IMG/VR virus record: IMGVR_UViG_3300023174_000439
Location: 1 to 32,253 of that record
DNA: 32,253 nt
Direction: 5' to 3' (one strand)
Source: a virus
In this document: positions 209-32,231 of the stretch, in pieces
How the letters are laid out: every line of letters begins with the position of its first letter
Numbering within the stretch: the stretch's first letter is position 1
Notes under the pieces: model-generated
Seen by the model: the letters and a program-made list of their open reading frames with translations, nothing else
Database searches by the model: none
Told to the model about the DNA's origin: nothing
Program-made: the position numbers and the translations under genes

Positions 209-640
209 CTATTTAGAGATATCTTCTGCATTTAAACCATTCTTAAGAAGTTTTTGAAGTTCTGCGGTAGATCCAACAAAAAGAGCATTTGTGACGTTTT
301 TTGGTCCAGATATTTGTTCCTTTTTTAGTTCTTTTACTTTTTGGTGAATATCCATCAACTTATCTGTAGAATCGGCAACATTTTTAATAAGTTGACCAAA
401 AACTTCATATGCTCTTGGTTGCTGTCCATCTTGTGCTAACTCTAAAAGACTTGTTGCTGCTTCTTGTCCTTTTTCAATTAAACTATAAAGAGTTCCACGA
501 ATATAATCATAATCTAACTCTGAATGGTCTTTATCTTCAATATTTTTTATTTCCTTTTTTGATTCTTTGATGATTTCTTTTGCAGTAATAGTCGCCTTAA
601 TATCCAAAGTTTCGTCTATCTTGTCAAAATTATTTTTCAT
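209..640 (-). CDS. gp16: Terminase small subunit, T4 gp16-like
   Basis: A 143-aa protein, close to T4 gp16 (164 aa). Small terminase recognises the DNA to be packaged and stimulates the large terminase gp17 at the portal. The sequence is nearly all helical and charged. The central part, DYIRGTLYSLIEKGQEAATS (about residues 45-64), followed by LLELAQDGQQPRAYEVFGQL and a helix with KLMDIHQKVKELKKEQ, matches the oligomerising coiled-coil core typical of gp16 proteins in marine T4-like phages. The ATG overlaps the gp15 stop by 4 nt (ATGA), which suggests translational coupling. Its position directly after gp15 is the T4 gene order. The C-terminus (LFVGSTAELQKLLKNGLN) is a short amphipathic tail. 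Confidence rests on both sequence pattern and position. Confidence 0.88.
   Translation of the reverse strand: MKNNFDKIDETLDIKATITAKEIIKESKKEIKNIEDKDHSELDYDYIRGTLYSLIEKGQEAATSLLELAQDGQQPRAYEVFGQLIKNVADSTDKLMDIHQKVKELKKEQISGPKNVTNALFVGSTAELQKLLKNGLNAEDISK
210..216 (-). promoter_or_regulatory. Candidate promoter element CTAAATA before the DUF5661-like gene
   Basis: CTAAATA overlaps the last codons of gp16, about 16 nt before the next ATG. It is identical to the element before gp15. Because it lies partly in coding sequence the support is low. Confidence 0.25.
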
Positions 641-1689
641 ACATCAATACCTTTTGTTGGACTATAGGTTTTGCCATCACCATAGTCGTAACGATATTCA
701 CTAAATCCAAAATCATCATCTTGTTCAATTAAAGCATCATCTGCATTATTGATAATATTTACAACAGTACCAGAAGTATGTGATACGATTTCTGTTTCAT
801 CTTGTCCTCTATTAACTGTGATTGTGTTCCCAGATATTTCTTTAATATACATTTCTTCATTATCAATTTCAATATATTCATTTACAGTAAGTGATGCTGC
901 ATTACTTACATCAAATTTAGTAATTTTATCATCTATATGTTCTGCTAGTGAAGTTGTATTATCATCGGTGTAATCTTGTATTGCTCTTGGTTCAGCAACA
1001 TAACGAAGTTGTCTAGAAGCATTTTTTCTGTTTGTATCTGTATAATAATCGACTTGTACTTTTTTGATAAGACCTTCAGTAGAATCAGGTAATGGTCCAA
1101 ATAGATACGTTTTTGCTGTAAAATTTAAATCATAAATTATAATTCTTTTTTCGTCATATCCACTTTCGTAATTATCTTTGAAATTTATATTTCCAAGAAC
1201 TATTGGAATATCACGTTTTTCACCTATAGAAGATACCAAATCAATTGTTAAATTAAAAGATGGCTGAAAGTATGGGAGAATTTGTTCTACAATTTGAAGA
1301 GCATCATCATTATATTGAGTCATAATTGAAAGTTGTATGCCCAAATTATAAGGAACAGGCATAAACAATCTATTTACTACTTTATCATCTGTGAGACTTT
1401 TTGATTTAAATGTTTGCATAGTAGAAATTTTTCTACTATTATCATATTGAATACTATTCATTTCAAATGCAAGTCTTGGGAGAATTATAGCAACTCTTTT
1501 TCTCAAATCTGGTTTTTGTTCTAATCTTGCTAAAAACTTTTCAGTAGGACCATATGCAATTGGAACTTTTATAGTGCTAAAATCACTGTCATCTTGTTTT
1601 TTGTGTTTGATATTAATATCATTAAATAAAGTACCAAAGGCAATAATTGTCTTACGAATTATTTCGTGATAGTAGTATTGTCCTAACAT
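637..1689 (-). CDS. gp15: Tail sheath stabiliser / tail terminator, T4 gp15-like, with C-terminal extension
   Basis: A 350-aa protein; T4 gp15 is about 270 aa. gp15 forms the hexamer that caps the tail tube and sheath and docks to the neck. The conserved core is residues 1 to about 235: the start MLGQYYYHEIIRKTIIAFGT, then IPIAYGP-like VPIAYGPTEKFLARL, LPRLAFEM, and a later DLNFTAKTYLFGP. Residues about 258-313 are an added module (IEIDNEEMYIKEISGNTITV, then RG and H-x-x-GT) that also occurs in the giant gp7 and the DUF4815 protein of this window. Residues 320-350 are an acidic, Tyr-rich tail. The gene lies 28 nt after gp14, with an AAAGG Shine-Dalgarno about 9 nt before the ATG, and overlaps gp16 by 4 nt. 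Confidence 0.9.
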   Translation of the reverse strand: MLGQYYYHEIIRKTIIAFGTLFNDINIKHKKQDDSDFSTIKVPIAYGPTEKFLARLEQKPDLRKRVAIILPRLAFEMNSIQYDNSRKISTMQTFKSKSLTDDKVVNRLFMPVPYNLGIQLSIMTQYNDDALQIVEQILPYFQPSFNLTIDLVSSIGEKRDIPIVLGNINFKDNYESGYDEKRIIIYDLNFTAKTYLFGPLPDSTEGLIKKVQVDYYTDTNRKNASRQLRYVAEPRAIQDYTDDNTTSLAEHIDDKITKFDVSNAASLTVNEYIEIDNEEMYIKEISGNTITVNRGQDETEIVSHTSGTVVNIINNADDALIEQDDDFGFSEYRYDYGDGKTYSPTKGIDV

Positions 1690-1708
1690 AATAATACCTT
1701 TTATTAAT

Positions 1709-1715
1709 TATTTAG
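1709..1715 (-). promoter_or_regulatory. Candidate promoter element CTAAATA before gp15
   Basis: CTAAATA on the minus strand lies in the 28-nt gap between gp14 and gp15, about 20 nt before the gp15 ATG. It differs from the late consensus core by one base. The same 7-mer recurs at 210-216, between gp16 and the DUF5661-like gene. Two occurrences at gene junctions are suggestive, not proof. Confidence 0.35.
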
Positions 1716-1717
1716 AT

Positions 1718-3136
1718 TTAATAATCCCCAAAAGGGTTTCTTTCACTAAAATCTAAAATTTCATCTGCTTCATTTTCTATTGGTATATTGTCTGCATAAT
1801 CATCATATTCATCTTGAGTATTGATTGAAAGAATTTTATAATTTGCATTTGACCCTCCACTTGTTGTTCCCATACCAACTACAGATTCCCCCCGAATAAA
1901 ACTTCCATTTAAAGTTTTGACTTGAAGTATTCTTGTATCATAATCCCAATCATTTACATAAGCAGTAGTTCCTGTCGAAACTCCTCTTACTATTTCGTTG
2001 AATATATAATTGCCCGTAGATACACCAACAGGTGAAGATATTGTAACTACTGGTGGCTGTGTATAACCTGCCCCAGCATTAGTATAACGAATTGAAGTTA
2101 CAATACCAGAAGAATTAATAAATGCTTGTGCAGTTGCATTTGTTCCACCAACAGGTGCAGTACTTATTGCGACAATAGGTGCAGTAGAATAACCAACACC
2201 ACCATCAATTAAATTTATTGGACCCAAAGAACCAGAAGATATAATTGCTGTTGCTATTCCTCCAGAACCACTACTACTTATAATACTAACAGTGGGTGCA
2301 ATTGTATATCCAATACCTGGATTTATAACTAAAATTTTATCAATTGAACTTCCAGTTTGACTGGAACGACTCGTCATTATTGCAACTGCTGTCGCATTTA
2401 TACCTCCAGAAGGAGCAGTACTTATTGCAACAATCGGAACAGAAAGATAACCAGTCCCATCATTAATTAAATCTATTTTTGATACCGAATTGCCACCAAT
2501 ACCCGGCGCAAGACTAGATGCAAGTTGTACAGTTGCAGATGTTGATGTTGCGCCTAAACCAACCATAATAAGTTTTACGATATATCCAAAATCTTTTACT
2601 GATTCGTCAACTTCATTAATACTTGTATTAATTACATCATCTGCTTCATAGTCCATCACTTCACATCTTAATTCGTAAACATATAAATTATTTAATTGAT
2701 AAAATGGTTTTTTTCCTTCTACATATTTGATTTCAAAAATTGTATTATCTAATGGGAGATAAATTAAATCTCCCTCTTGAGGTCTTGATGATACTTCAAT
2801 TTGTGTATTTAAAGAAATAAATGGACTAATAAAATCTTCATATCTTTCTTTTGATATTACAAAAGTAACTTCATCAGTAGTTTTTACTCCAAATTTTGAT
2901 AGAATGTCTCCTTGACCTCCAAATCCCTCATAATTGACTAAATATGCTTCAATTCTGAATGAATCATCAAATTTTGATGATGTTATTTCCTTTAATATTG
3001 TATTTTTATTGATAATATTTCTTGGAAGATATACTATATCTTGTCCATACATTCTCAATTGTTCATTAATCAAATCTTGTACTAATCTTTGTTCACTAGA
3101 AGAACCCTGCAAAAAATATGGATTAAGTGGAGACAT
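1718..3136 (-). CDS. gp14: Neck protein, T4 gp14-like, with an inserted Gly-rich repeat domain
   Basis: A 472-aa protein, against about 256 aa for T4 gp14. gp14 completes the neck, linking head and tail with gp13. The family core is residues 1 to about 195: MSPLNPYFLQGSSSEQRLVQ, LINEQLRMYGQDIVYLPR, DEVTFVISKERY, EGDLIYLPLDN and YELRCEVMDYE. The conserved C-terminus also remains (ADEILDFSERNPFGDY). Between them lie about 240 extra residues: four units of the type GxGY-x4-P-x-V-x-I (about 219-368), then a module with GTTAYVNDWDYDTRILQVKT (about 375-435). Both additions recur in other tail proteins of this window. The gene starts 2 nt after the homing endonuclease stop, with no strong Shine-Dalgarno, whereas in T4 it directly follows gp13. 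Confidence 0.9.
   Translation of the reverse strand: MSPLNPYFLQGSSSEQRLVQDLINEQLRMYGQDIVYLPRNIINKNTILKEITSSKFDDSFRIEAYLVNYEGFGGQGDILSKFGVKTTDEVTFVISKERYEDFISPFISLNTQIEVSSRPQEGDLIYLPLDNTIFEIKYVEGKKPFYQLNNLYVYELRCEVMDYEADDVINTSINEVDESVKDFGYIVKLIMVGLGATSTSATVQLASSLAPGIGGNSVSKIDLINDGTGYLSVPIVAISTAPSGGINATAVAIMTSRSSQTGSSIDKILVINPGIGYTIAPTVSIISSSGSGGIATAIISSGSLGPINLIDGGVGYSTAPIVAISTAPVGGTNATAQAFINSSGIVTSIRYTNAGAGYTQPPVVTISSPVGVSTGNYIFNEIVRGVSTGTTAYVNDWDYDTRILQVKTLNGSFIRGESVVGMGTTSGGSNANYKILSINTQDEYDDYADNIPIENEADEILDFSERNPFGDY
2033..2482 (-). repeat. Four GxGY-type beta repeats inside gp14
   Basis: Four protein repeats of roughly 35-45 residues, with the core GTGYLSVPIVAIS, GIGYTIAPTVSII, GVGYSTAPIVAIS and GAGYTQPPVVTIS. 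Units 1 and 3 are also close at DNA level: both contain GCAGTACTTATTGC (plus-strand sense) about 260 nt apart and share the protein run IVAISTAP. This suggests duplication within the gene. Related units occur in gp8, the giant gp7 and the DUF4815 protein. Confidence 0.8.
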
Positions 3137-3138
3137 AA

Positions 3139-3684
3139 TTATACTCTACTAAAGGTATATCCACGATGACGAGTTTGTCCTTTTTTATTCAAACACCTAC
3201 AAATCGCACTAGTATCCCCACTAATATAATCTGCACATTCCTTTATTGATTGAAATTTTTTATTTAATTCATTTATCATAACTGATTTTGATGGTATATG
3301 ATTTCCTTTGCCTTTTTTTGTATTTGATATTTTTTTGCCTCTTTTTTTTCTGTCTTCAACCGACAAATTATCCCAAAATTTTTGTACTCCTGCAATATGA
3401 TTATTATTTCCTTTTTTCATACGAGGGGGATTCTCTCCACCATCAGTTTTGTTATAAAGAATACCTGTTCCCAAATCCTTTCTTCCATATTTTTTTATAT
3501 AAATTTTTTCCATTTGCATCGCATCTTCCTCTGTAAGATTATCTGCAACTTTTATTCTTCTTTCTTTTGGGGGAAGACTTATTCCAGGATGAGCTTTACT
3601 ATCTATCCTACCATTGCACCCTTTACCAACATAGTAAGGAGTACCATCTTCTCGGTTATAAAAGTAGCAATAGTATTTTTTCAT
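3139..3684 (-). CDS. GIY-YIG homing endonuclease, free-standing
   Basis: A 181-aa protein with a GIY-YIG nuclease domain at residues 1 to about 88. It has the paired Tyr motifs YYCYFY and YYVGKG, Arg26 in GCNGRI (the expected catalytic Arg), Glu59 in MQMEKIYIKKYG (the expected metal-binding Glu) and the YNKTDGGEN motif at about 77-85, so it looks catalytically intact. The middle (GKKISNTKKGKGNH, about 113-126) resembles a NUMOD3 DNA-binding motif. The C-terminus (KKFQSIKECADYISGDTSAI ending in RHRGYTFSRV) resembles a NUMOD1-type helix-turn-helix. Such genes cut related phage genomes that lack them and spread by repair. It starts 3 nt after gp13 ends and stops 2 nt before gp14 begins, so it is wedged between two genes that are adjacent in T4. 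Its own Shine-Dalgarno is weak. Confidence 0.92.
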   Translation of the reverse strand: MKKYYCYFYNREDGTPYYVGKGCNGRIDSKAHPGISLPPKERRIKVADNLTEEDAMQMEKIYIKKYGRKDLGTGILYNKTDGGENPPRMKKGNNNHIAGVQKFWDNLSVEDRKKRGKKISNTKKGKGNHIPSKSVMINELNKKFQSIKECADYISGDTSAICRCLNKKGQTRHRGYTFSRV

Positions 3685-3687
3685 ATC

Positions 3688-4503
3688 TTAACCTATAAGG
3701 TCCATTGGAGGTAATTCGTATTCCGTTTTAAGTTGATTTTCTGCTTCTTCTATTTCTTTAACTGCATCATCAAAAAGTTGTCTTCCATTAAGTTGCACAC
3801 CACCAGGAAGCAATACACCTTGGAATTTAATCATATTCTGTCCCCACTGTCTTTTGATTAGTGCAGTTAAATATTTTTTTAACCACCAATCATTATAAAC
3901 ACTTGATGCATCTGCGGGATTTACCATTCTATAACAATCAAATATAAGATAATTATTTGGTCCCATTTGGCTCCAATCAATATCTAAATATAATCTATGA
4001 TTTTTTTTATTAAATCTAGTTTGAATGTCTGGAGTAATAATTCTACTTAAATCTTCCAAATAGGTTTTGACCATTGCATAATTTAAAATATCAAGTGCTC
4101 CATAATAATATAAATCATTTAAAAATAATTGATATTTGATATTAAATAAACCACCAGAAATTGTACTGGAGTCTACCTTGAATACATTATTTACACCAAT
4201 TACATGATCGGGAAGTTGTATAAAGTTATTAGATTCTGTATAAGAAACAGTAGTAATTCCAACATTGGAAGATGCAGTTGAAGTTGTGACTCCTGTTCTT
4301 ATAGAATCTAATTGACTTTGTGATAACTGATGTTTTAAGAATACTTTTTCAATTCCATCATAATGTCTTTCATTAAAATATTGAATTGCATCATCAACTA
4401 AATCATCAATTTGATCATCATCTACGTTAATTTCTATTACCGGATATCCAAGTTTTCTTAAACAATAATCTATTAAACCTTGACGTGATGATGGTTGAGC
4501 CAT
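3688..4503 (-). CDS. gp13: Neck protein, T4 gp13-like (head completion)
   Basis: A 271-aa protein (T4 gp13 is about 309 aa). gp13 binds the portal after DNA packaging and, with gp14, makes the head-tail connector. Recognised by the start SSRQGLIDYCLRKLGYPVIE, then DDLVDDAIQYFNERHYDG, LPDHVIGVNNVF, a helix with LEDLSRIITP, and ending GVQLNGRQLFDDAVKEIEEA. These are typical of gp13 proteins of marine T4-like phages. Length and content look complete. The ATG follows the stop of the preceding 79-aa gene by 2 nt, and the Shine-Dalgarno (GAGGCAGG, 4513-4520) lies inside that gene's last codons, so translation is probably coupled. The homing endonuclease gene follows 3 nt after the stop. Confidence 0.9.
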   Translation of the reverse strand: MAQPSSRQGLIDYCLRKLGYPVIEINVDDDQIDDLVDDAIQYFNERHYDGIEKVFLKHQLSQSQLDSIRTGVTTSTASSNVGITTVSYTESNNFIQLPDHVIGVNNVFKVDSSTISGGLFNIKYQLFLNDLYYYGALDILNYAMVKTYLEDLSRIITPDIQTRFNKKNHRLYLDIDWSQMGPNNYLIFDCYRMVNPADASSVYNDWWLKKYLTALIKRQWGQNMIKFQGVLLPGGVQLNGRQLFDDAVKEIEEAENQLKTEYELPPMDLIG

Positions 4504-4505
4504 TG

Positions 4506-4745
4506 TTAGAAACCTGCCTCTTCGTATTTATCTTCTTCTTTTAACTTTTTTGTTTTATTTTTAATCAAATCGTCATATTTTTTTTGAAGTTCCAAATTTG
4601 CAATTAGAAGTTTATTTTTTTCATCTTCATAATCTTGAACTAAAGATTGCATTTTTGCTTCCAAAAGAATATTCTGATTTAGTAGATTTGAAATTTTTTG
4701 CGTGTATACATTTATTAAAATATTCACATCAACATCATTATTCAT
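4506..4745 (-). CDS. Small coiled-coil protein of the structural cluster, unknown function
   Basis: A 79-aa protein, highly charged and predicted helical for most of its length (about residues 8-70), with hydrophobic spacing suited to a coiled coil: ILINVYTQKISNLLNQNILL, then KMQSLVQDYEDEKNKLLIAN and a Lys-rich end. No membrane segment or enzyme motif is visible. It lies between the Mtd_N fibre-type gene and gp13. In T4 the fibritin gene wac, a long trimeric coiled coil, sits just before gene 13, so a coiled-coil virion or chaperone role is conceivable. That is inference from position only; the protein is far too short to be fibritin. Its Shine-Dalgarno GGAGGT is supplied by the last codons of the upstream gene, and it ends in AGF, supplying that of gp13. 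Confidence 0.75.
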   Translation of the reverse strand: MNNDVDVNILINVYTQKISNLLNQNILLEAKMQSLVQDYEDEKNKLLIANLELQKKYDDLIKNKTKKLKEEDKYEEAGF

Positions 4746-4747
4746 AA

Positions 4748-6475
4748 TTAGAATTGACCTCCATCTATAGTGTCAGTCCAAACAGGAACATTTGAAGCAT
4801 TTGTGGTCAAAATATAATTTGAAGTACTTGCATAACCAACTTCTGGAGATGTAGTACTTGTAAGTTTTCCATTTGAATCAAAATATGCAGATCCTCTGGT
4901 ACTAATGCCAGAAGATGTAAAATTAAGATATAAAGCTCCAATATCAAGAGTACCCTTAGTTCCTGATACTACACTATTTGTAAATGTAGCATCAGGAATA
5001 AAAGTAAGGTAACCAGTAGAATCTTTGTAACCAAAGAAACCTTTTTTATAATTTGCAACACCAGAACTTGTATTGTATTCAAAAGAAATACCACGATCAG
5101 TATTTGTATCATAATAATGTTGTACTGTTAACTGCGTAGTCGTTGTAATTCCAGAAGTTGTGGTTCCAGAAATTGTAATAACTTTAGAGGTAGAATTATA
5201 TGCTGTAACAGTTCTATCGGCAGTCGTTACTGGAAGTCCATTTGGCCCAGAAATAATATCGCCGGTATTGATACCAACAACTGAATCTAATGTAATTGTA
5301 CTCACACCAGAAGCAACAGTGCCCATAATGGTCCTGATGCTTGTAATATCCCCAAGATTGAATATTACTTCATTTGCACTTACAGTGCTTGAATTTACTG
5401 TAGTTGTAGTTCCATCTACTTGCAAATCACCTTTAATAACAACAGTGCCCTGATTGCTTAATGCATCTGGATATGGGTCAATATAAAGAGTATTTCCTCC
5501 ACCGGATTTAGTAGAAATTACATTCGAACTAATTCCAATATTATCAATTATTGCTCCACCGATATTAGTAAATACGCCAGAGTGTGTAATTGATCCAGTA
5601 AATGTACTAACTCCGATTATAGTATGTATATCACTACCAGACTCACCTAAATTTGTATTTCCTTGTACTATCAGATTACCAGTAAGAGTCTGATTTGCTG
5701 TTACGTTTAAACTACCACCAATATAAACATTACTTGCAATTCCAACACCACCAGATACAACTAAAGCACCAGTTGCAGATGAACTTGAGGTTGTTGTTCC
5801 ATTAATTTTTACATCACTTGCAAAAGTACCAAATCCTGCCTTAGATACGACAAATTTTGATACGCCACCTACTTGGAAATCAACTAGTTTTGAAGAACTA
5901 GCAGATTGAGTATCTGTTATGTTTACTCTTAGACCAGTAAAATCTATACCAGAATTATTCCAAGTTCCTGTTGCATTTAGAATTGGATTATCTGAAGATA
6001 ATGATCCTTGGGTTATTGTAGTTGATCCATTTGTCGTATCAACTACAAATCTATTTGTAAGTCCATCATTAATATTAAATGTTTGTGATGTTCCTCCAGT
6101 AAAAGTTAAATCTCCAGTACCATTTGGATCAATGACAACATCGCCATTTGTAGATGAAACTGTATTTCCATCAATTGTAATATTATCTACATTCCATTGA
6201 TCAACTTTACGATATTGATCCAAAACAGGAACAAACCCATTTGCTGGAGTTGTTGGATTTGATTGACCCGCAACTAATCCAGGAGCAATGCTTAAAAGGT
6301 CTGTATAGTATCTACCACCAACTATTTGTGGATTTGAAGAATTGTCACCAGCAAATAATCTTCCTCCAAAGTTTCCATTGGTTCCTACACCAACTGTAAG
6401 ACCAAGTTCTCCAAAATTTAAACTACCTGGAGATACAGTTCCTGTGGACCTTTTAACTCTAATTATACTTGCCAT
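4748..6475 (-). CDS. Tail-fibre-like structural protein with Mtd_N-type N-terminus
   Basis: A 575-aa protein, Gly/Ser/Thr-rich and without enzyme motifs. Residues 1 to about 57 (IRVKRSTGTVSPGSLNFGEL, then GGRLFAGD and IVGGRYY) match the attachment domain seen at the N-terminus of many phage fibres and of the Bordetella phage major tropism determinant. The middle is beta-repeat-like, with ATGALVVSGGVGIASNVYIG and several xVGGxx strands suggesting a trimeric fibre or beta-helix. The part DRGISFEYNTSSG followed by KKGFFGYKDSTGYLTFIPDA is a segment common in marine phage fibres. It ends TIDGGQF, like the neighbouring 75-aa protein. It overlaps that gene by 1 nt (TAATG) and has a strong GGAGGT Shine-Dalgarno 8 nt upstream. 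A role in the distal baseplate or host contact is inferred; the receptor cannot be told. Confidence 0.82.
   Translation of the reverse strand: MASIIRVKRSTGTVSPGSLNFGELGLTVGVGTNGNFGGRLFAGDNSSNPQIVGGRYYTDLLSIAPGLVAGQSNPTTPANGFVPVLDQYRKVDQWNVDNITIDGNTVSSTNGDVVIDPNGTGDLTFTGGTSQTFNINDGLTNRFVVDTTNGSTTITQGSLSSDNPILNATGTWNNSGIDFTGLRVNITDTQSASSSKLVDFQVGGVSKFVVSKAGFGTFASDVKINGTTTSSSSATGALVVSGGVGIASNVYIGGSLNVTANQTLTGNLIVQGNTNLGESGSDIHTIIGVSTFTGSITHSGVFTNIGGAIIDNIGISSNVISTKSGGGNTLYIDPYPDALSNQGTVVIKGDLQVDGTTTTVNSSTVSANEVIFNLGDITSIRTIMGTVASGVSTITLDSVVGINTGDIISGPNGLPVTTADRTVTAYNSTSKVITISGTTTSGITTTTQLTVQHYYDTNTDRGISFEYNTSSGVANYKKGFFGYKDSTGYLTFIPDATFTNSVVSGTKGTLDIGALYLNFTSSGISTRGSAYFDSNGKLTSTTSPEVGYASTSNYILTTNASNVPVWTDTIDGGQF
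4757..4762 (-). promoter_or_regulatory. Shine-Dalgarno GGAGGT embedded in the C-terminal codons of the 575-aa gene
   Basis: The 575-aa gene ends GAT GGA GGT CAA TTC TAA, followed by TT and the ATG of the 79-aa coiled-coil gene. The codons for the conserved D-G-G thus supply the ribosome site, 11 nt from the ATG. Confidence 0.8.
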
Positions 6476-16397: not shown

Positions 16398-19300
16398 TTA
16401 TTTACTTTTAAACAAACCTCTTGTTCTTGTAACTTCCGGAGCAGTCGAAAGTCCAATTAAACCATTATTAGTGTTTAATGTAAATTCTTTTGGAGAACCA
16501 AGTGATCTATTTTGATAATCATATATCTTACCCCAACTATAATTTCCATAATAACCATTTGTTGTTATTCCAGGATTTATCGTAAAATTAATTCCGGACC
16601 CTGTTGATGGATTGGGAAGAAATGTACAAGTAACAGTCACTATTCCTACTACAGACGAATTGATTGGTTTTTCTACTATATCGGCACGATATAATCCATC
16701 AATAAATGAAGTTGCAGTACCAACAACTTCCCAAGAAGTAGAATTCGTAGTTATTCCGGTTAAGGAATGTCCACACTGAACATTACTATTATATATTATG
16801 AAATAATCTCCTGCCGAAATTCCACTTGAATTTATATTATAACTATTAAGAGCAGAATACCCTATTCCTAATTGAGTATTATCATAAGATTCGGTTTTTA
16901 ATTTAATTTTTATTTTTGGTATAGTTGAACCGATACTAATGCTGGTATCGATACCCACTATAATACCAAAATCACCCTTTGCCTTGATTGATTCGATTTC
17001 TTCTATTTTTGTTTTTTCTGATTCAATTAATACTTTTGGTGGATTTGCTTGATTATATCCAAAACCGGGATTTGTAATTATGATAGAAGTTACAATTCCA
17101 GATTTTGCATCTGAAATTGCTGATGCAAAATTATAAACAGGAACAGAATAAATTGAAGTGGCCCCAGATCCAACAGAAATGTATCTATCTTCAACAATTG
17201 AATAATTAATATCTTTTAATACATTTGATTGATTTGTGGATCTCTGAGTCCAATTTTGAAGATTGAATGAATAATATAATATCCCATTTGAATTTAATAA
17301 TGTATATAAGTTGTAATATGAATTATAATGTATATTTGTAAAATTACCAGAAATATTGGGAGCAATCTGCACCCAACTAGTTCCATTGGTAGAAGTTCTA
17401 ATTTCGGAATTGTTACCAACAGTTATAAATTGAGATCCAGTCCAAATAACTTTATTTAAATTTTCTCCTGTAATATTATTAGAACTCCAAAATGTTCCTA
17501 CATCACTTGTAATAACTGTTCCATTATTTCCAACTGCAACAATAATATTTCCTATAGAAATTGATTTTAAATCATCAATTGTATTTGATGGTTTTTTAAC
17601 AAATTCTGTACTACCAAATCCAACTGCAGAAAAAATTGCACCACCACAACCAACAGAAATCCATTTATCTATAGATGATGAATATTTAATGTCGGTCAAT
17701 GATGAAATATAATTACTTAATGATCTAGTTACAATACCAAATTGAGAAGTTTCTTCGTATTTATTGTATTCGGTCCAAGAAGATATCGTTACACCAAATC
17801 CAATAGATCTTACAATTTTACCTTGTTCCCCAACAGCAATATAATAATTTGTAGAACCCAACCCAACAGAATTGAAGGAAATTGTTCTACCATACCCAAT
17901 ATTTGTTATTGTATTGAATGATGTTCCATTTGTTGTAATTGCCACTATTCCACTTTGTCCAACAGACACTATAGGATTTCCAATAGTAAATGATAATAAT
18001 GAGGTATTTGTCGATAATCCACTCGTAGGCAACCAATTTAATATTGGATCTTTACTTTCAACTGATATTGTTGATATTGAAACTTTTGGAGAAATTGTCG
18101 ATGCATATCCAATACCTCCAGTAGAAATTGCAATAGAAGATATTGTATTTGCAATTGATACAACTGCTGTTGCAATTCCTGCTTCTGTGTCTTTATTTTC
18201 AATTATTAATACATTTCTGTCTGCTTCTTCTATTAAATCAATATCAGTAAATAAAGGATATGCATTATTTACATATATTGACGTATCTGTAGCACTTAAG
18301 TTTGTAATAATTCTAGTTGTGGGTCTAATCGTTGATATTAAACTTGGTCTTGCTTTAGAAACTAAAGAACCAAGAATAACTCTATCTTCTGTTTGTTTTG
18401 TCCATTTTAATGGTCTAAATTTATCCGGATTTATATTGATCCCAATACTATCATAATTATAAGTATCAAGTTGATCTGATGCAACAATTTTTTTAACTAC
18501 TCTTTCAAATTGTTCTCTATCTAAATTATCGTAAATATTTTCTCCAATTTGAACAATATCCCCCTCTTTAATTGTTTTTGGTGGAATAATTGTTTCAACA
18601 TCTAAAGAAGAACCTTTGTAAAATACAACAGAACATTTTGAGTTTATTTTTGGTGGTTCATTAAAAACTATTCTAGAACCAGAAAATGTGTAAGATTCTC
18701 CTGGTACTTGAAGTATATCATTCAAGAATATAAAGATATTATTTTGTAATATAATATCAGACCCAAAATTCTTTTTCAAATCAACTATTTCAGTATTTCC
18801 ACTACTAGTTTGTGTTAATGTAAATTTTTTGCGAGATTCATTAAAATATTGAGAAAAATCATCAAAATAAATAAATTGTCCAGGATAAAAACCACTAAAT
18901 TTATCTGTTAGAGTTTCTGTCACTGTAAGTTTAAACTCTTGAAATCCTGCACCAATCGTTGGATTTGTAGTTAATCCAACTACTTTAAGAATATCTCCAA
19001 CTTTATACCCAACACCAGGATTGTCCAAATTAAAACCAATAACACTTGAACCAGATCCAACTTGAATTGATACTTTTGCATCAGTTCCAACTCCAGATGA
19101 ACCACTAGTATACGCAACACCAAGATTGCTGTATGCAAGAGGTAAGTCGATATTTACATATACTGGTGAAGATGAGGTATATCCAATTCCGCCATTAATG
19201 ATTGAAAGTGACGACAATGTACCACCAACACCAACATTAGCCGTTATAGACGCACCAGAACCAACATTAGACGTAATACTGATGCTTGGAGGTGTTCTAT

Positions 19301-22300
19301 AACCACTACCACCACCTTTTATGGTAATTGAGGTAATTGTCCCTGCAGATGAAACTGATGCTGTTGCTGCTGCTCCAATTAATGGTTGATAACCAAATCC
19401 AGTTGTAATTGCAACATTTACGATTTTTCCAGCATTTGGGATACCAGTTAAAAATTTAATAGTATTATTTCCGGGTGTATCAATTGAATAATCTACTTCT
19501 GGACCTTGGAAAACATTGTTTATAAGTATAATCGGATTATTGTTAATGTCTGTAGAACTATTTGTGTCTGTATACAATCCAACAACACTATTTCCATTTG
19601 ATTTTAAATTAAATTGTGTTGCTGCAATTCCAGTAAAATTAGTAGAAATATCATCTAAAATTAAATTTTTATCATTTGGACTTGAAGAATCAAATGCCCT
19701 AGAGAATGCTCTACCAGAGAAGAAAGATGATACTTTAAATTGAGGGTCCGTTGATGCTATTGCTGGTCCATATGGTGGAGTAGAAAAATATATTACATCA
19801 TCTATGATATTAAAATCACCAGTATGAACAGTAACCGCAGAACCTATTGTGTGCCCAGCAGCAACTGTTCCCATAAATGAACGAGTAACATCTATTTTAT
19901 TTGTAGATCCAATACCAACAGAAATGATTTTTAAAAATTCATTGTTAATTTTTAAAATGTCTGATCCTGATATAGAATTAATACCAGAAGAAATGTATAT
20001 TGCGGTTGATCCAATACCGATTGATGTAGAAAGACCTATTGTAATATTTTTTCGATGAACTGCACTTTGGATTATATTATCTATAGAAATAATTACATTT
20101 TCATTTGGATTTTTAAAACTAAATGATTGAGTTCCAGAACCATATGAAACTAAATTAAAAGGAGTCGAAATTGTTGTAGATAATCCACAAAGTTGAAAAT
20201 TATTTACGTCAATTTTACGAACAAAAACATTTGATGGTAGTTTTTTAGTTCCCAGTAATGTCGGAGAAAGATAAACATTATCTGCAGGTGTAGATCCACC
20301 AATATAAGTTCCAGCAATTGATATTTGGTCAGTTGATGCATAACCAGAACCACCATTCACTACAGACACTAAACTAATATCTCGATTTGCATTTCTGAAT
20401 ACATTAAAAATCGCACCTGTACCTATTCCACTAGAAGAAGAAGGCACATTATTGTAAGTCGCATTTGCAGATCCGGATCTGGTAGATGATAGTTTAGATA
20501 TTGTAAAATACAGATTATTGGTGGGTGTTGCCCCACCCATATATGTTCCAGCAATTGAAATTTTTTGCCCTACAGAATATCCACTTCCACCATCAATTAA
20601 CTGTATTGATGTACTTAATGGTATTCCAGTACCACCATTGTAAGTGATAAGAACTTGAAATAGTGCTCCTGTACCAATTCCAGTATTTACTTGTCCGGGA
20701 ATAGGATTACCAAATCCAAAATATTGAATAACAGGACCAGGGGGAGATATAGTAGTGCTAATTCCAGTAACAATTCCAGTATATGGGACATAATTATTAT
20801 ATCCATTTTCATATATTGCACTTCCTATTCCTGCTCCCACATTTATTAGTATATCAAGAGTTCCCGTTGCATATGATGTGGTAGCAATGCCTATAGTTGT
20901 CCCAACTCCAGAATTGTAAATTATTTCTTGCCCAGATTGAAATCCATGATTTGGGATAATAAATTTATCATTTGATAAATCGACAATTGTACTAGCAGAT
21001 CCAACAAATTCTCTATAAAATAATGAATTTTCCGAACTTTTAAGTTTAAATGAAGACAAACCAACGATTGTTCCTCCAATTGTGCTAGTAATTCCTGTAA
21101 ATTGTGAACTAATATCATCAATTAATGAAACTTTATTGGTCTTATTTAATATAAAAGTCCTCAAAGCAGTTCCTTCTGGGAAATAAATCCTTTCTACGGA
21201 TTCGTCATCTAAAACATCTTCTTCATATACCATCGAAAAATTATGTTTTGTATATAAAGAATCAAAGCTATCCATATTTACAAGTAATGTTGTTTCCGAT
21301 GATGCAACAGAAACTTTCATATTTGTAGATTTAGCAATTCCAAGATTAACTGGACCACTGGTGGGTATTCCAATTATATTTAAATCTGAAAATTCTTTAA
21401 ATCCAGATGGGTGTATAATTGATTTTATAGATTCTTTCCAAGTTGAGTATGGTATTTCGCTTTTAATTGAATATGAGAATTTTTGATAATAATTATTATC
21501 TGATATTCTTTGCTGATAATCGTTCAAAAAACCAACTTTGTCTCCAAAATTATTAATTTTGTCTCTAGAAACTCCTAAAGATGCAGAAAGATTAAATATA
21601 GATACAAATTTTACTACTCCATTTAATTTTGAATTTTCCCCATAAAGTTTATCACCAACATTTAACACTCCTTTAGCGTTTATTAATCTTAATTGATTTA
21701 TGTCATTATCCCAACCATCTTCCATTACTTGTGCTGAAAAATTAGTAGATGATACTTTTTCTCCAGAAAAATATTGGGCATCATCAATTATATTCATTTT
21801 AAATTCAGCCATATCTTTTTTATTGACAACATAACCAAGAGTAAAATCTGAATTATATTCACCAAATGAATTTGTTTGCAAACCATTCATATTATAGTTT
21901 ATAGTTCTATTTGTTGTGTTTATTCCTGTTACTGTAAAAAAGTTATACCCATAATCTTTTGAATTAAAATTAGCAGAAGATGCAGATCCTACAGTCAATC
22001 TACATTTTTCAATAAAAATATTATCACCTACTACAAATGGAAATTCTGTTATTGTTGACCCATATCCAATTGCGATTGGTTCAAATAAAATAGGATCATT
22101 TACTAATTCTATTGTTCCATTTCCTGTGATATGATTTGCATATATTTGATCAATTTCATATCCATTTGAATTATTGTATGGAACAATTCTGAGCGGATCT
22201 TTCAAATTAAAAACATTTTTTACTATTTTTACATCAATTACAGACCCACCTTGAATTTTAGATGTCAATTCTAATTGATCATTTCCAATAACTTTTAATC

Positions 22301-25300
22301 TTGGTGATGTATTATAATTTTTTCCTCCTGTCAAAATACCAATAGATTCTACTCTAGATATTTCTTTAATAATGCAAATAGCAGGAACACTCAATTGTGG
22401 CAGTATAGTAGGATCTGTTGGATAATCAAATCCATCTTTAATTCTATCAAATGATAATATTTTACCAATTTCGGATGAAACTGAATACAATATTGCATTT
22501 TTTCCAGAAGAAGATTTGATATAATCTACAGATGGAAGAATCGAATACGATTTTCCTTTTGAATTAATTCTAATTTGTGATATTTGTCCAGTTGTGTTTT
22601 TTGAATTTGTATCATAAAAAACTGAAGAAATTCCTGATACCTGAGTGTATTCTGTATATTCTGGTTTTTTATTTAAATTAAATTTAAAAGAATTGGTTCC
22701 AATACCAATAATAGATTGTTCATTTGATAAATTGCTTGGCAGAATGTCAATTCGATTAAAACCAAAAACTTCTTTATCCGTAGATAATTGATTTTTTTCT
22801 ACATCATTGGATGACGTAATAAAATTATAGTAAAGATTTGCAGGAATTGATCTATCATTAGTTTGTAGTGTTATATTTGTAGATGTTCTTTGAATTGCAA
22901 ATTGATTTGTTTCTTTTTTATCAATTTCAAACTGTTTTTTGAAATCTTGATCTATATAAAATCTTAAATCAATATCCAATAATGTTGGATCGGATATATC
23001 AAATACTATTATATTTCCTTTTGAAAATGATAGTGGTGGATTTATAAGAGCAATATTTTGAGTACCAATTCCAGCATTAGAAAATGATATCCCCAATCCA
23101 ATAGTCACGTCATAAGAATATTTACAAAGTTGTATTTTATCTGGGTGTTCTTTTAACACATAATAAACTGATTCATTTTCTAAACCACCAATAGCAGTAG
23201 TTCCAGAATAATAAACAATTTTATCTCCATTTTTTAATATATTAGAACCAATATCAATTGTTGATGTAGAACCAATAGAAACTTTTGATGTAGAAAAACC
23301 TATAAGATCGGTTGTAATTTTTCTATTTTTTTTATCAAATCTAAAAGATACATTTTCTGTTCTTGATGGTATAATTGTAAATTTAATTTTATCTCCATCA
23401 ATTAAATTGTGAGGTTCTGAAGTAGTCACAATTCCAGAATAATTTTCAACTCTTGCAGTTACTGTTTGATATGTAGTTCGAATTGAATGAGAATAACCAA
23501 TATTTGAATTGTAAGTAAAATATAAAGAATTTAAAGTACTCCCAATTCCAACTGAAGTAGTAAAACCTAATGTAGATATTCCCAGATAATTATTTCCAAA
23601 ATTTACAGCATATATTGTTTGATTCTGCGTTAAACCAAATGCAAAAGAAGGATTGTTGTCATATACACTCAATCCCATACCAGCAGCAGAATAATTATAA
23701 ATTAATTGTTGTCCAGTATAAAATTTATGATTTGGAATATAAATTGATTTTGATGGGACAAATTTATTTACGGTAGTGCTTGTTCCAATACCAACAACCG
23801 AATAATTAGTTCCAGTAATTCCAAATCCAACACTATTTGTTGGATCAAAATATATCATTTCATTTTCTGGCAAAAATGATGAAATTGGATTAATTTCAGT
23901 AAATTGAAACTTTTTGGGAAGTAATCTTACACTTTCAATTCCTGCAGTATGAATTCCACCAGAAGAAGATCTATTGACCAATAACTGTGATGTTTCTGGT
24001 ATGATATTTGTAATGGTTAATATTTCTGTTCCAATTTGAATTGAATCGTTAACTTCAAAACCAAAAATATCTGTGACATTTATATTTGTAGAAATTCCAG
24101 TAACACCAACGTTTTGTAAACTAGTCGTCAATCCAGTTACTTTTTGATTTACAATTATAGTTTTTGTGCCTTCAAGTTGATGTAGGAATATTGTCGATAT
24201 TCCTGAAATGATTATTTTATCATTAGATATCAAATTATGTACTGATGAAGTAATTCCTATAATATTATTACCTTTAGTCGTAAATATAACGTCATTGAAA
24301 GTAGATACCCCAACAATCATATTTGATATTGTTTTACCATTTACTCTACCAATTTCTGCACTTATTCCTGTTCCTTCTTTTGCTTTTTTAAAATTTATAA
24401 TATCATTTACACGATAGTCTTCACCCAAAGAATCAATTACAATAGATGTAATTCCGGATTTTTTAATTTGCTTTACTATAAAATCTTGTTTTAAATTTGA
24501 AATATTTTTATTTAAAGCATCGTACCCAGAATTTTCAGAATCTAAAAAATAATTTCCGAAATTTCTTATTAAATTAAGATTTTTAAAATCTAATTTTTGA
24601 GAAAAATTTGGATTAAAATTTTCAATAACTGGCGTATCTTTAAAATATTTTCCAATTACATATGGATATTTTGGAATTAGATTTCCTGTAACTAAATCAT
24701 GAGTTGCAAAGTAAGCATATGTTCCATATGGATACTCCGGAGTTATACAAAATCTTCCATTATATTGATCCAAATCTCCAGAATTATTAAACTTATAATC
24801 GTTTACAAAAAAACCAATCTCAAAAGAATTTGGTCTTAACGAAGAAGAAATAATTGGATCTTCTATATAACTAGAATTAATTAATTTAATACTAGTATCA
24901 GTTAAACTTGCATATCCATATGGTCCATAAATCGGATTTCCATCATAAGACCATCCAATAATTGGACTATGCGAAGTGTCAATTCCAACTTCAGTATTAT
25001 TATCGTTAATATTATCACCGATATTTTTTCTTAATTTTTTTGGTAGATAAAAATTAATTATTTTCAACTGAAGAGATTGATCAATGCTTGGATATGTTAT
25101 TGTTTCATCATCCCCACCATAAGATGATATTATATCTTTATTTTTTTTAATTTGATTAATTTTCCACTCAAATACATTTGCAATAAATTGCAAATCTTTT
25201 CCTCTTCTAATTGCCTCTATTGTGGTATTTGATTTTTTATATCCAACTCCACCATCAATTATTACAAATGATGTAATTTTTCCATTTGCAATAAGAGGTT

Positions 25301-28300
25301 GGATATTGGCATACTTTCCATCTCCAGAAATTATTATTTCAGTTCCATTATCGTATCCATTTCCAGAAAAAATAATTTGAATGTCAGTAATTGAACCATT
25401 TATAATAACAGGTTTCAATAAAGCAGAAGTGATCGGTATTAAATCCACATTGGGTCTTCTGTGGAAATTAATAATATCAGAAGAACCATAAGAACTACCA
25501 CCATCTTCAATATAAACACTTTCGGCACTTCCAAGTACTATTGGAGTCAATACTGGCGATACAATTGATGTTGAACCTATTCCAGGTATAGATTCAACTT
25601 GAATATTAATCGGAGGATATGCAAACGTATGTGTACCAACTCCTAAAGAATTAAATTTAATATATTTTTTATTAATATAATTTAAATTGGTTGATGTAGT
25701 TCCAATACCTGCATCAGATAATTTAAATTTATCTTGATCGATAACTGTAATATAGTATTCAATATTGGTAGATAATCCAGATATTGAAGTACCGGTGTTG
25801 GAATATTTAATAAAATCTCCATTTCTAAATCCATGATTTTTGGCAAAAATATAATCATCAAATGTGCTAATTCCAGAAATTTGATAATCTAAAGATGGGT
25901 ATGAAATAGAAGATACTTTAACTAATCTATTTGAATATCCGGAACCTGAATTTTTGACATAAATTTTATTAATAGTTTTTTTACTGTTAAGAGTTCTAAA
26001 TTCATGAAATCCGGAACTTATTCCGGTAATATTAATAGTATTAATTCCTGATAAAACATCTGATCTATTTTTGTGTAATTTAATTTGTTTTGAATTTATA
26101 ATATTTACAAAATAATTTGATTTATCATTTAATCCAGGGAGAACCGAATTTCCATTTGAATAATATGTGACTTCTTCATAATTATCAAAATTATGATTAT
26201 CTATAAATGATATGGTTTCTGTAGATGTATTAATTGCTGTTAAATCTGCTTTAAATTTTGCAATAATTCTTGTTTTTACTAAATTGGATTCTAATACTGC
26301 ACCAGAACCATTTCCACCAATTAAAGTTATTTTTGGTTTTCTATCATAACCAATTCCTGGGGAATTTATTTTTACTTCTTTTAATGATCCAGAAAGAATT
26401 AAATTTGCTTTACATCCAGATCCAATAGAATCACTAATAATTAAATCTGAAGAATTTATCACATCATAATCTTTTCCTGGATTTGTTATTTGAATTGAAT
26501 CTATTTTTCCGTAATAAATATTTTCATCAAATAAAGTTGGTGAAAATAATTCCACACCATTAACTAACAATCCAATATTTCTATTAAATGTAGTTCGATC
26601 ATTTTCGTTATCAAAATAATTAATATTTTCAGTTAAATTGAATTTTCTTAATATTTTTTGATCTTTAATTGTTTTATTTTCATAACCAAGTTTGAAAATA
26701 AAATCATTAGAAACTCCAGAATATAAATTAATATATTCTTCGGCAAATAAATTAGTATTACTATATGCCAGTGATATGGAATTATTATTAATTTTTTTTA
26801 CAAAATAAATTCCAGTTTCAATTCCGGCAGAAGTTTTTGAATCATAATAAATTTTATCTCCAGATAATAAATTATGATTAGATATTTCCAAAATTGTAGT
26901 TGATCCTGTTCCTGTAGTGATAACATTTCTTTTTGTATTTGTAGACGTAATTGTATAATTGGGAAAACCAGAAGTAGTCACGTATAAATATTTTCCCTCA
27001 TTATCAATATAAGTATTTTGGACTCCTCCATTTATATTTGATATATCAGTAAAATTTGGAGAATCGGATTTAGTAATTTTTTTCTTAATTTTTATTATAT
27101 TTGAAATGTCTATATTCGATAATGATTCTATAATAATCGTGGTTGATGATTCGATAGTTATAACTATAGCATCAATATCTACATTTAATATATTAGAAAT
27201 ATAAATTTGATCATTTTTATAAAGTTTAACGTTGTCTTTTAATATTATTCTATAATTATTATTGCCAATTGATGTTATTCCACTTATATTATGATATGTT
27301 GGTATATTATAAATCCAACTATCAAAATTTGTATTTCCTGATAAGTTTTTTCCAAAAGAACTGAGTGATATTTTATCTCCAATTTTTAATCCAGAAGAAT
27401 TTTTAGTATCAATTTTATCAATTACACTAATAACTCTAAATTCGTTTAATGATGTATCTGATTGATCATATGCATATGCTAATTTTTTTTCATAAATAAA
27501 ATCTCCAAAATTTAAATTTTGACTAATGCCAGAAACATTTAAAAATTGAGTGCTTGTTTTGTCTGTATAATTTAAAGTTAATTCGGTTAAATTTGATTTT
27601 TGGGCAATAATTGTTCCTGATTGTGCAAATCCAACTGTAGAATCAACAGTAATTGTATTATTTGATGCAGGAACAGTTTCAATTACTTTAGTAGATCCTG
27701 TAATTTCAAAATCACCAGTAAAAGAGGTAGAATCTAAAGATATTTCATAAAAATCTTTACCTTGTATTGGTCTATATTCAATATTATAGATAGAGGCAGA
27801 AACTGTACCAATTCCACTTATAAATTGATTTAATGTTGTTCCTTTTAATGAAGTGATATTTTTTCCAGAAATTTTTTCAACTAAAATGTTTTTTGTTACA
27901 AAATAATTATTATCAGATGGCCTCAACATATATTCTTGAGGATTTATTGTTTCTATTTCTGTTCCATATAAAATTGAAAAAAGAATTTTAAAAGACTGTG
28001 CTGTTCCTTTTGAAGAATAAAAATCTTTTGCTCTTGATAAAATATTTTGTAAAGAAATTTCTGGAGTAAATTTTCTTTCCTCAAAACCAGGCAAAAACTG
28101 ATATTTAAATTTTTTAAATATTTCAAAAAAGAATATAAAATTTAAATTTTGCAAAGAACTTCCAGATGTATGCTCTGATGCTTCAGTAATTGAAAAATTT
28201 AAAAATTCTGGATTATTGTTTCTTTGTAAACTATCAATTCCACTAAATCCACGAATACAACCCAAAAATGAATTTGAAGTTTTTGAGGTATAAGTAATAA

Positions 28301-31601: not shown

Positions 31602-32231
31602 TTAATTTAAATTTGTAATTTCATACATGTAATGATTAGATGTTTCTATTTTTCTTTTATTTTCTACGGAATATAAATTCATATCAATCTCATATCCAGG
31701 ATTTGATTCAATGCGATTGAATGTCCAGGCACTATCATACCATATAATTCTATTATTTGGGTATGCATAGTAATTTCCAGTTTCCATCTTGAACAAATGA
31801 GCACATTTATGTTCAGGAGTCTCTGAAAAATTAAGATCAGTGACTCCTTTATTTTCCCATGACCAATCAAGAGTAAACATATAACTTCCAATCACCTTTT
31901 TTCCGTCAGGACGAATTAATTCTGCCTGCAATCCAGAAAGACGTGCTCGTTTCTGAACGTCAATATATGGCGAAAAACAATCCCAGTACATAATATCTTC
32001 CAATGGTTCAATTGGTGCATCTGATTTCCAACAAAAGGCATGAAGAGGTCTACGAGTCCAATTTACACCATTTTCAAGAAATGCCTCAAACAAAGGAACT
32101 CTTTTTTCAATACTAGCAACACAATGCACATCACATTTGGTTACTTCGCCATGCCCCTTTATATGATTAAAAAGAAACTCATTACGAATATAACAACTCC
32201 AATCTGGAAGGCTGTGATTTAGATAAGCCAT
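31602..32231 (-). CDS. Conserved phage protein of unknown function, 209 aa
   Basis: A 209-aa, Trp/Cys/His-rich soluble protein. It begins AYLNHSLPDWSCYIRNEFLF and has ENGVNWTRRPLHAFCWKSDA (about 53-72), MYWDCFSPYIDV (81-92), YMFTLDWSWEN (117-127), ETPEHKCAHLFKMETGNYYA (137-156) and YPNNRIIWYDSAWTF (157-171). I recall closely similar proteins as conserved hypotheticals in T4-like cyanophages but know no function. Six Cys (13, 33, 37, 67, 85, 143) and several His could bind metal; this is speculation. It is not T4 gp53, whose sequence is quite different. The ATG has a good Shine-Dalgarno (AAAGGAT) about 8 nt upstream. It is complete at its 5' end, with 22 nt of the window beyond it, and lies 29 nt or more before speD. 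Confidence 0.8.
   Translation of the reverse strand: MAYLNHSLPDWSCYIRNEFLFNHIKGHGEVTKCDVHCVASIEKRVPLFEAFLENGVNWTRRPLHAFCWKSDAPIEPLEDIMYWDCFSPYIDVQKRARLSGLQAELIRPDGKKVIGSYMFTLDWSWENKGVTDLNFSETPEHKCAHLFKMETGNYYAYPNNRIIWYDSAWTFNRIESNPGYEIDMNLYSVENKRKIETSNHYMYEITNLN

Follow-up and report, generated by a model that had tools for sequence, protein, structure and literature searches.

A free-standing GIY-YIG homing endonuclease gene at the gp13-gp14 junction of T4-like phages, and a replaced gp13 end that probably travels with it

The DNA studied here, which we call the window, is the whole of a virus record of 32,253 bases. Its minus strand carries a T4-type morphogenesis cluster in which a homing endonuclease gene (HEG) is followed by gp14, gp15 and gp16 and preceded by gp13 (Table 1). 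The HEG is a gene of its own, outside any intron or intein; 3 nt separate it from the gp13 stop codon and 2 nt from the gp14 start, in agreement with the gaps given in the original prediction. The block in front of the HEG that is shared with another contig, L002, includes an AGG 7 nt before the HEG start. By gp13, the nearest annotated phages are Synechococcus phages (best S-SCSM2R, 65% aa), and the host of the window virus is therefore probably a cyanobacterium.

Table 1. Features of the gp13-gp14 region and neighbouring genes, in window positions
Feature	Position	Strand	Remarks
Free-standing GIY-YIG homing endonuclease gene (HEG), 181 aa	3139..3684	-	ATG to TAA, 546 nt
GIY-YIG nuclease part, aa 1-84, common to relatives at other genomic sites	3433..3684	-	
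C-terminal NUMOD-like part, aa 142-178, presumed DNA-binding	3151..3261	-	
gp13 neck protein / head-tail adaptor, inferred target gene	3688..4503	-	PHROG 211
gp14 neck protein / head closure, 3' of HEG	1718..3136	-	PHROG 460 and Pfam T4_neck-protein
Recoded gp13 end	3691..3700	-	Differs from empty L032 at 3700, 3699, 3697, 3691; DMIG to DLIG
20 nt 5' of HEG start, identical to L002; left end of shared block	3685..3704	-	
Right end of L002-identical block, TTATGT	3133..3138	-	Spans spacer and gp14 start codon
gp15	637-1689	-	
gp16	209-640	-	

The HEG protein matches PHROG 15526 (unnamed) and PHROG 314 (homing endonuclease). The residues that carry meaning in the GIY-YIG motif (Y5, Y7, Y18, G20, R26, E59 and N78) are invariant in all 23 sequences of an alignment that includes the window. 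In an AlphaFold model, the core of aa 1-80 has block pLDDT values of 77-95, and the best PDB match of this model in Foldseek is the GIY-YIG domain of UvrC, a weak match (E 0.46), with no PDB match at E < 0.001. A profile search with the HEG returned two GIY-YIG proteins and UvrC at E 2e-4 to 0.25. The protein matched neither the Pfam GIY-YIG profile nor any NCBIfam model, and the Pfam NUMOD-like profile PF22083 reached 24.8 bits at aa 142-178, just below its 27-bit cut-off. Our assignment of the protein as a nuclease thus combines the PHROG matches, the residue alignment and the structure model, with a reading of the motif residues that follows, in part, PMC2988022. The dN/dS of the HEG is 0.10-0.55 in the pairs where it is defined, and the frame is therefore a real, constrained gene. 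The gene had been predicted to be an intact GIY-YIG HEG with all expected catalytic residues, and this description holds: it belongs to the free-standing GIY-YIG phage HEGs. A search of positions 1500-5000 of the window against Rfam gave no match at E up to 0.1.

A protein search of IMG/VR returned at least 10 contigs with HEG copies 88-99% identical to that of the window, plus more distant ones, and an alignment search added two further HEG contigs (L280 and L281). In all 14 contigs with a match over aa 1-178 or more, the HEG sits between gp13 and gp14. Relatives at other sites match aa 1-146 at most among the matches listed, no record of the phage collection covers 80% of the HEG protein, and among the relatives found the NUMOD-like C-terminal part gave a tblastn match only in those at the gp13-gp14 junction. 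Of the 322 contigs with both gp13 and gp14 fetched from IMG/VR, 301 have an empty junction, 14 the full HEG and 7 a stub of it; these counts are not a prevalence because HEG-positive loci were sought on purpose. Before counting, 17 of 339 rows were dropped as repeat fetches (L210, L279, L288, L289, L297, L298 and 11 of L262-L278). Seven pairs among the 322 are identical over their whole overlap; once these are merged, 316 contigs stay in the count, 295 of them empty, 14 with the full HEG and 7 with a stub. Near-identical contigs (L003/L010 and L029/L030, for example) were retained, so that the rows in these counts are not independent. A left-junction pattern was found in 12 contigs of the collection, all of them already among those counted here, and the narrow right-junction pattern TTTTAG in 3 contigs only. 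The HEG is thus sporadic at the gp13-gp14 junction and not fixed.

Movement shows when the HEG is compared with its neighbours. Between the window and L002, both with the HEG at the gp13-gp14 junction, only 6 of the 546 nt of the HEG differ, while protein identity is 53% for gp13 and 42% for gp14. The corresponding dS is 0.029 for the HEG and 1.61 for gp13, and two further pairs show the same contrast (HEG 0.12 and gp13 0.85 for L005-L007; HEG 0.16 and gp13 1.12 for L012-L281). Outside the HEG, the two sequences of the first pair stay identical for 20 nt before its start and 6 nt past its stop. Since near-identical copies reside in phages with strongly diverged gp13, the data point to a recently mobile, horizontally transferred free-standing gene. 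A recent insertion at this junction had been predicted, and both the dS contrast and the sporadic presence bear it out; an HEG fixed in all relatives, with a divergence matching that of its surroundings, is not what we see.

The same prediction held that the insertion was scarless and placed exactly between the two genes. Comparison of the junction with close relatives that lack the HEG corrects this point: in close with/without pairs the flanks match, and the last 10-18 nt of gp13 are replaced next to the insertion. Over 300 nt of each gene, identity between the window and the empty contig L032 is 97.0% for gp13 and 97.3% for gp14, and the 4 differences in the gp13 tail all fall in its last 13 nt. 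We counted differences in three segments, namely the final 24 nt of the upstream gene, the 276 nt before them and the first 300 nt of the next gene, and obtained 4, 9 and 8 for the window against L032 (p = 0.014) and 4, 2 and 2 for L007 against L193 (p = 4e-4). At the protein level, gp13 ends in D-X-I-G. Of the 301 empty contigs, 232 have Met as X (226 of 295 once identical sequences are merged). Among the 22 loci with an HEG or a stub, made up of the window, 14 full-HEG contigs and 7 stubs, none has Met, and X is Leu (14), Phe (3) or Ala (5). The insertion is therefore not cleanly intergenic, as the last gp13 codons were replaced along with it, and of the two genes that had been put forward as the target it is gp13 that the replaced end makes probable. 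What remains of a displaced native end at the gp13 junctions is a stop codon and spacer at most.

How far the tail changes beyond its usual variability was judged from empty contigs. For 62 of them, each set against the closest empty contig of different sequence at a body divergence of up to 5%, we counted 0.040 differences per site in the tail and 0.017 in the body. At least 4 differences in the last 24 nt occurred in 7 of these 62 close empty rows and in 4 of 4 close HEG rows (p = 5e-4), or in 4 of 59 and 3 of 3 after a rough reduction of the rows (p = 9e-4). At a divergence of up to 15%, tail and body had 0.234 and 0.097 differences per site in 16 HEG or stub rows, as opposed to 0.069 and 0.075 in 202 empty rows; the other 6 of the 22 HEG or stub rows were left out because they had no empty contig within 15%. 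Four of the 16 (L011, L012, L029, L030) show no Met change against the nearest empty contig, and the excess in the tail mostly falls short of significance when divergence is larger or when the second-nearest contig is the reference (L002, L003, L004, L006, L010, L012, L280, window vs L031, and others). Ends of gp13 also vary without an HEG, 69 of the 301 empty contigs lacking Met at X, and some of the empty contigs (L201, L203, L332, L337, L340, L349) bear the HEG-type codon of their own clade. The recoded tail is therefore not exclusive to HEG carriers; its presence in empty contigs may reflect HEG loss, resistant alleles or chance.

The signature is also seen in cultured Synechococcus phages. 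Along a stretch of 23 kb, the phages MA01, MC09, MA10 and ME01 show 100.0% identity (rounded value). Their gp13-gp14 junction is empty in MA01 and holds an inverted GIY-YIG HEG in MC09; in MA10 and ME01, and also in S-H34, it holds an HNH HEG of 217 aa with NUMOD3 (L381, L383 and L382, respectively). MC09 equals MA01 over the first 825 nt of gp13 and over 1,036 nt on the gp14 side, and in the last 18 nt of gp13 the two differ at 9 positions, several of them synonymous, turning LDMIG into LDQVG (9, 0 and 0 differences in the three segments, p = 3e-11). The same 18-nt gp13 end is found in the HNH-HEG phages MA10, ME01 and S-H34. The orientation in MC09 bears on an explanation by which the replaced gp13 end is kept because the HEG uses it as a ribosome-binding site; in the window, ATAGG lies 7 nt before the HEG start. 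The window tail has this motif, as do 20 of 21 HEG or stub contigs, with a predicted energy of -3.6. However, the HEG of MC09 lies on the other strand and the tail is recoded all the same, so that it is not the ribosome site of the HEG there; L281 has ATTGG instead, and L032 already has ATAGG without any HEG. We thus consider this explanation highly unlikely.

The HNH-HEG phage MA10 presents a longer change. Compared with MA01, its gp13 has the recoded tail and, within the final 75 nt, 2 changes, and its gp14 differs over about 125 nt from the start, where it equals S-H34; the rest of both genes is identical. Having looked for co-conversion tracts, we thus find an S-H34-type gp14 start in an otherwise MA01-like background, which is the pattern that co-conversion would leave; on the gp13 side of the tract the likeness to S-H34 is less clear. 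No displaced native gp13 end was found at the junction of MC09 or MA10.

Short replacements recur at other genes. In the ACG-2014f isolates, uvsY of the HEG-bearing C7 and US39 equals that of US34 and C80 over its first 416 nt and differs from it at 11 of the final 19, while a third empty isolate, US26, has three further differences in the uvsY body. For C7 against US34 the three segments hold 11, 0 and 0 differences (p = 7e-14), and US39 differs from US34 once in the 300 nt past uvsY; the displaced native end amounts to a stop codon and spacer at most. For RN05-S against S-B43 the uvsY counts are 4, 2 and 0 (p = 4e-4), the 2 being scattered changes besides the tail, and here the native uvsY end forms the 3' end of the HEG (GGGTTAGGTTAATGG). 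Again, in the ORF before the primase, MA01 and MA10 differ near the end: counting gap columns, 17 of the 60 final alignment columns are changed, as against 0 of the 684 before. A gapped alignment was used for this comparison because of an indel. The native end of this ORF likewise forms the HEG 3' end in MA01 (AAGAAGAAGGACTCTTGA). A native gene end found at the HEG 3' end places the insertion point at such sites inside the last codons of the upstream gene. Relatives of the HEG were also found between uvsY and uvsW and beside uvsX, S-B68 and S-CREM2 bear HEG sites as well, and the neck cluster itself is invaded at several junctions.

These data can be set against ordinary intronless homing of the T4 Seg type, in which the enzyme would cut elsewhere in gp13 or gp14 and the changed end would be functionless donor sequence at the edge of co-conversion. 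For free-standing T4 enzymes, the available text of PMC2988022 puts the cut at a distance of hundreds to thousands of bp from the gene, and recipients are assumed to become resistant through replacement by the donor allele (PMC12724721, in the text available); the longer tract of MA10, with the gp13 tail, 2 further changes and about 125 nt of gp14, fits such a process. In MC09, ACG-2014f and RN05-S, however, the change lies on one side and is 16-19 nt long, none of 300 nt being changed in the next gene; such short replacements recur at three genes (gp13, uvsY and the ORF before the primase), and the full MC09 tail is matched in the phage collection in HEG-bearing records only (5 records). We therefore regard Seg-type homing as an unlikely, if serious, account of the replaced ends.

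The reading that we favour, with a probability of roughly two in three, is that the mobile unit consists of the HEG and a recoded, probably cleavage-resistant gene end, a phage counterpart in miniature of the yeast WHO elements. It takes up the mobility, the sporadic presence, the replaced gene end, the decay by deletion described below and the like layout at other genes, to which it would add cleavage, cut position, immunity and coupling as inferences. The HEG would move among co-infecting T4-like phages at one site, the gp13 3' end, as a unit that joins the nuclease gene to a recoded gp13 end of about 10-20 nt with its stop codon. By analogy with the WHO elements, the enzyme most likely cuts an HEG-free phage in the last gp13 codons, commonly GAYATGATNGG, and repair from the HEG-bearing genome would swap in recoded codons that still make a gp13 end and would copy the HEG. 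The target would be lost through the recoding, and the carrier would be immune with gp13 intact. The original gene end would come to lie downstream of the HEG; at two other sites it still supplies the last codons and stop of the HEG there. Translation of gp14 would then probably be coupled to the HEG stop. More broadly, GIY-YIG and HNH HEGs of cyanophage-type T4-like phages might as a rule home into the final codons of essential genes, bringing a recoded end that restores the gene and is uncuttable, with tail-only alleles being resistant; on this wider proposition we see the odds as evenly balanced.

Seven contigs carry decayed copies of three kinds at the gp13-gp14 junction. L029/L030 keep aa 1-24, with the joint in AGGAT, a motif that occurs at both joint positions in the full copies L007 and L009. 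L283-L285 have an in-frame internal deletion that leaves 87 aa, and L330/L338 retain 21 aa. HEG copies thus decay by deletion, and every stub ORF ends at or over the gp14 start codon, which is compatible with gp14 coupling. The seven stubs, which document loss by deletion, would also suit an HEG that is an old resident lost many times, the tail differences being chance linkage. Against this, HEG divergence is far below gp13 divergence across clades, and the empty close relatives that we examined keep the usual Met tail of their clade and not a stub; an old resident is hardly credible.

The idea that the insertion leaves gp14 with a weak ribosome site was borne out only mildly. The predicted gp14 Shine-Dalgarno energy is -2.4 in the window and has a median of -2.4 in the 14 full-HEG contigs (-4.0 to -2.0), against a median of -3.6 at the 301 empty junctions (-15.1 to 0.6; L032 -4.0, L192 -2.7). 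The site is thus weak after the HEG, but it is weak at empty junctions too. As gp14 starts are weak with and without the HEG, coupling of gp14 translation to the preceding stop codon is plausible in both situations, and the HEG is predicted to have a modest effect on gp14 expression at most.

In the yeast WHO elements at FBA1 (Coughlan et al., 2020), the unit is an HEG together with a resistant 3' end of the target gene, according to the available text (PMC7282813). The likeness extends to the position just behind an essential gene, the replacement of the 3' end of that gene along with the HEG, the native 3' end displaced behind the HEG (clear in the phages at uvsY of RN05-S and the ORF of MA01), and the decay of older copies. 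Unlike the phage genes, WHO enzymes are intein-like with a zinc finger, and they replace some hundreds of yeast-gene bases, compared with about 10-55 nt here; the resistance of the replaced end to the enzyme was demonstrated for WHO (PMC7282813) and is presumed here by analogy. A word search of the available text of this paper gave no mention of phage. With a GIY-YIG and NUMOD-like protein in place of an intein-like endonuclease with a zinc finger, and HNH enzymes in other phages, the phage HEG would work like a WHO element and is not a member of that family.

The target of F-CphI of phage S-PM2 is reportedly the intron insertion site in psbA. This enzyme, too, is encoded by a free-standing cyanophage HEG, but it belongs to another nuclease family, with an Endo VII motif (PMC6083498, available text). 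The T4 Seg (GIY-YIG) genes, such as segE at inh/uvsW and segA at uvsX, are likewise free-standing mobile genes between conserved T4-type genes, and they differ in that their enzymes are described as cutting far off, while the inherited change here abuts the insertion (PMC2988022, in part). Mobile ORFs with a foreign gene C-terminus, known from the mitochondria of the fungi Glomus and Allomyces, combine an endonuclease ORF with a replacement host-gene end and leave the native end behind; in contrast to the phage genes they are mitochondrial, have longer replaced ends and are in some cases in frame with the gene (PMC3630166, available text). A limited search of the open-access literature, as far as its text was accessible, gave no description of recoded gene ends with phage HEGs, the word "homing" is absent from the available text of PMC7472177 on S-H34 and S-N03, and "Makaravirus" is not mentioned in the open-access literature searched.

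Should the favoured reading be correct, it would explain how free-standing HEGs can insert beside essential structural genes without harm or self-cleavage, and cut site and insertion site would lie together, unlike in the T4 textbook case. A recoded-rescue layout is used in engineered homing drives; the same layout would then exist in phages, as a natural "home-and-rescue" drive. HEG targets could also be recognised from sequence alone by the short replaced ends of genes. Related cultured phages with and without the elements (MA01, MC09 and MA10; S-B43 and RN05-S; ACG-2014f) make the idea directly testable.

Lastly, we note some observations on the neck genes and the rest of the window. S-N03 has a GIY-YIG HEG relative between gp15 and gp16 (L374 2998-3567), S-N03 and S-B68 themselves having only distant relatives among the matches seen. 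An annotated homing endonuclease lies between gp14 and gp15 of S-SRM01 (L369 6275-6802) and is HNH-like, below the Pfam cut-off. In S-CAM9, gp13 is enlarged to 373 aa (L370 3001-4122), and the window gp13 matches it in two pieces; we dropped the idea that this split marks another HEG, as gp13 is annotated there as a single longer ORF. In its C-terminal part (aa 216-367), the window gp14 has matches to regions within baseplate and virion PHROGs, and a 4073-aa baseplate ORF (window 16398-28619) matches the head-closure PHROG 460 at aa 3021-3156; the two proteins perhaps have a repeat domain in common. Near the end of the window, positions 31602-32231 encode a protein that matches PHROG 3704 (ferredoxin, auxiliary metabolic gene).
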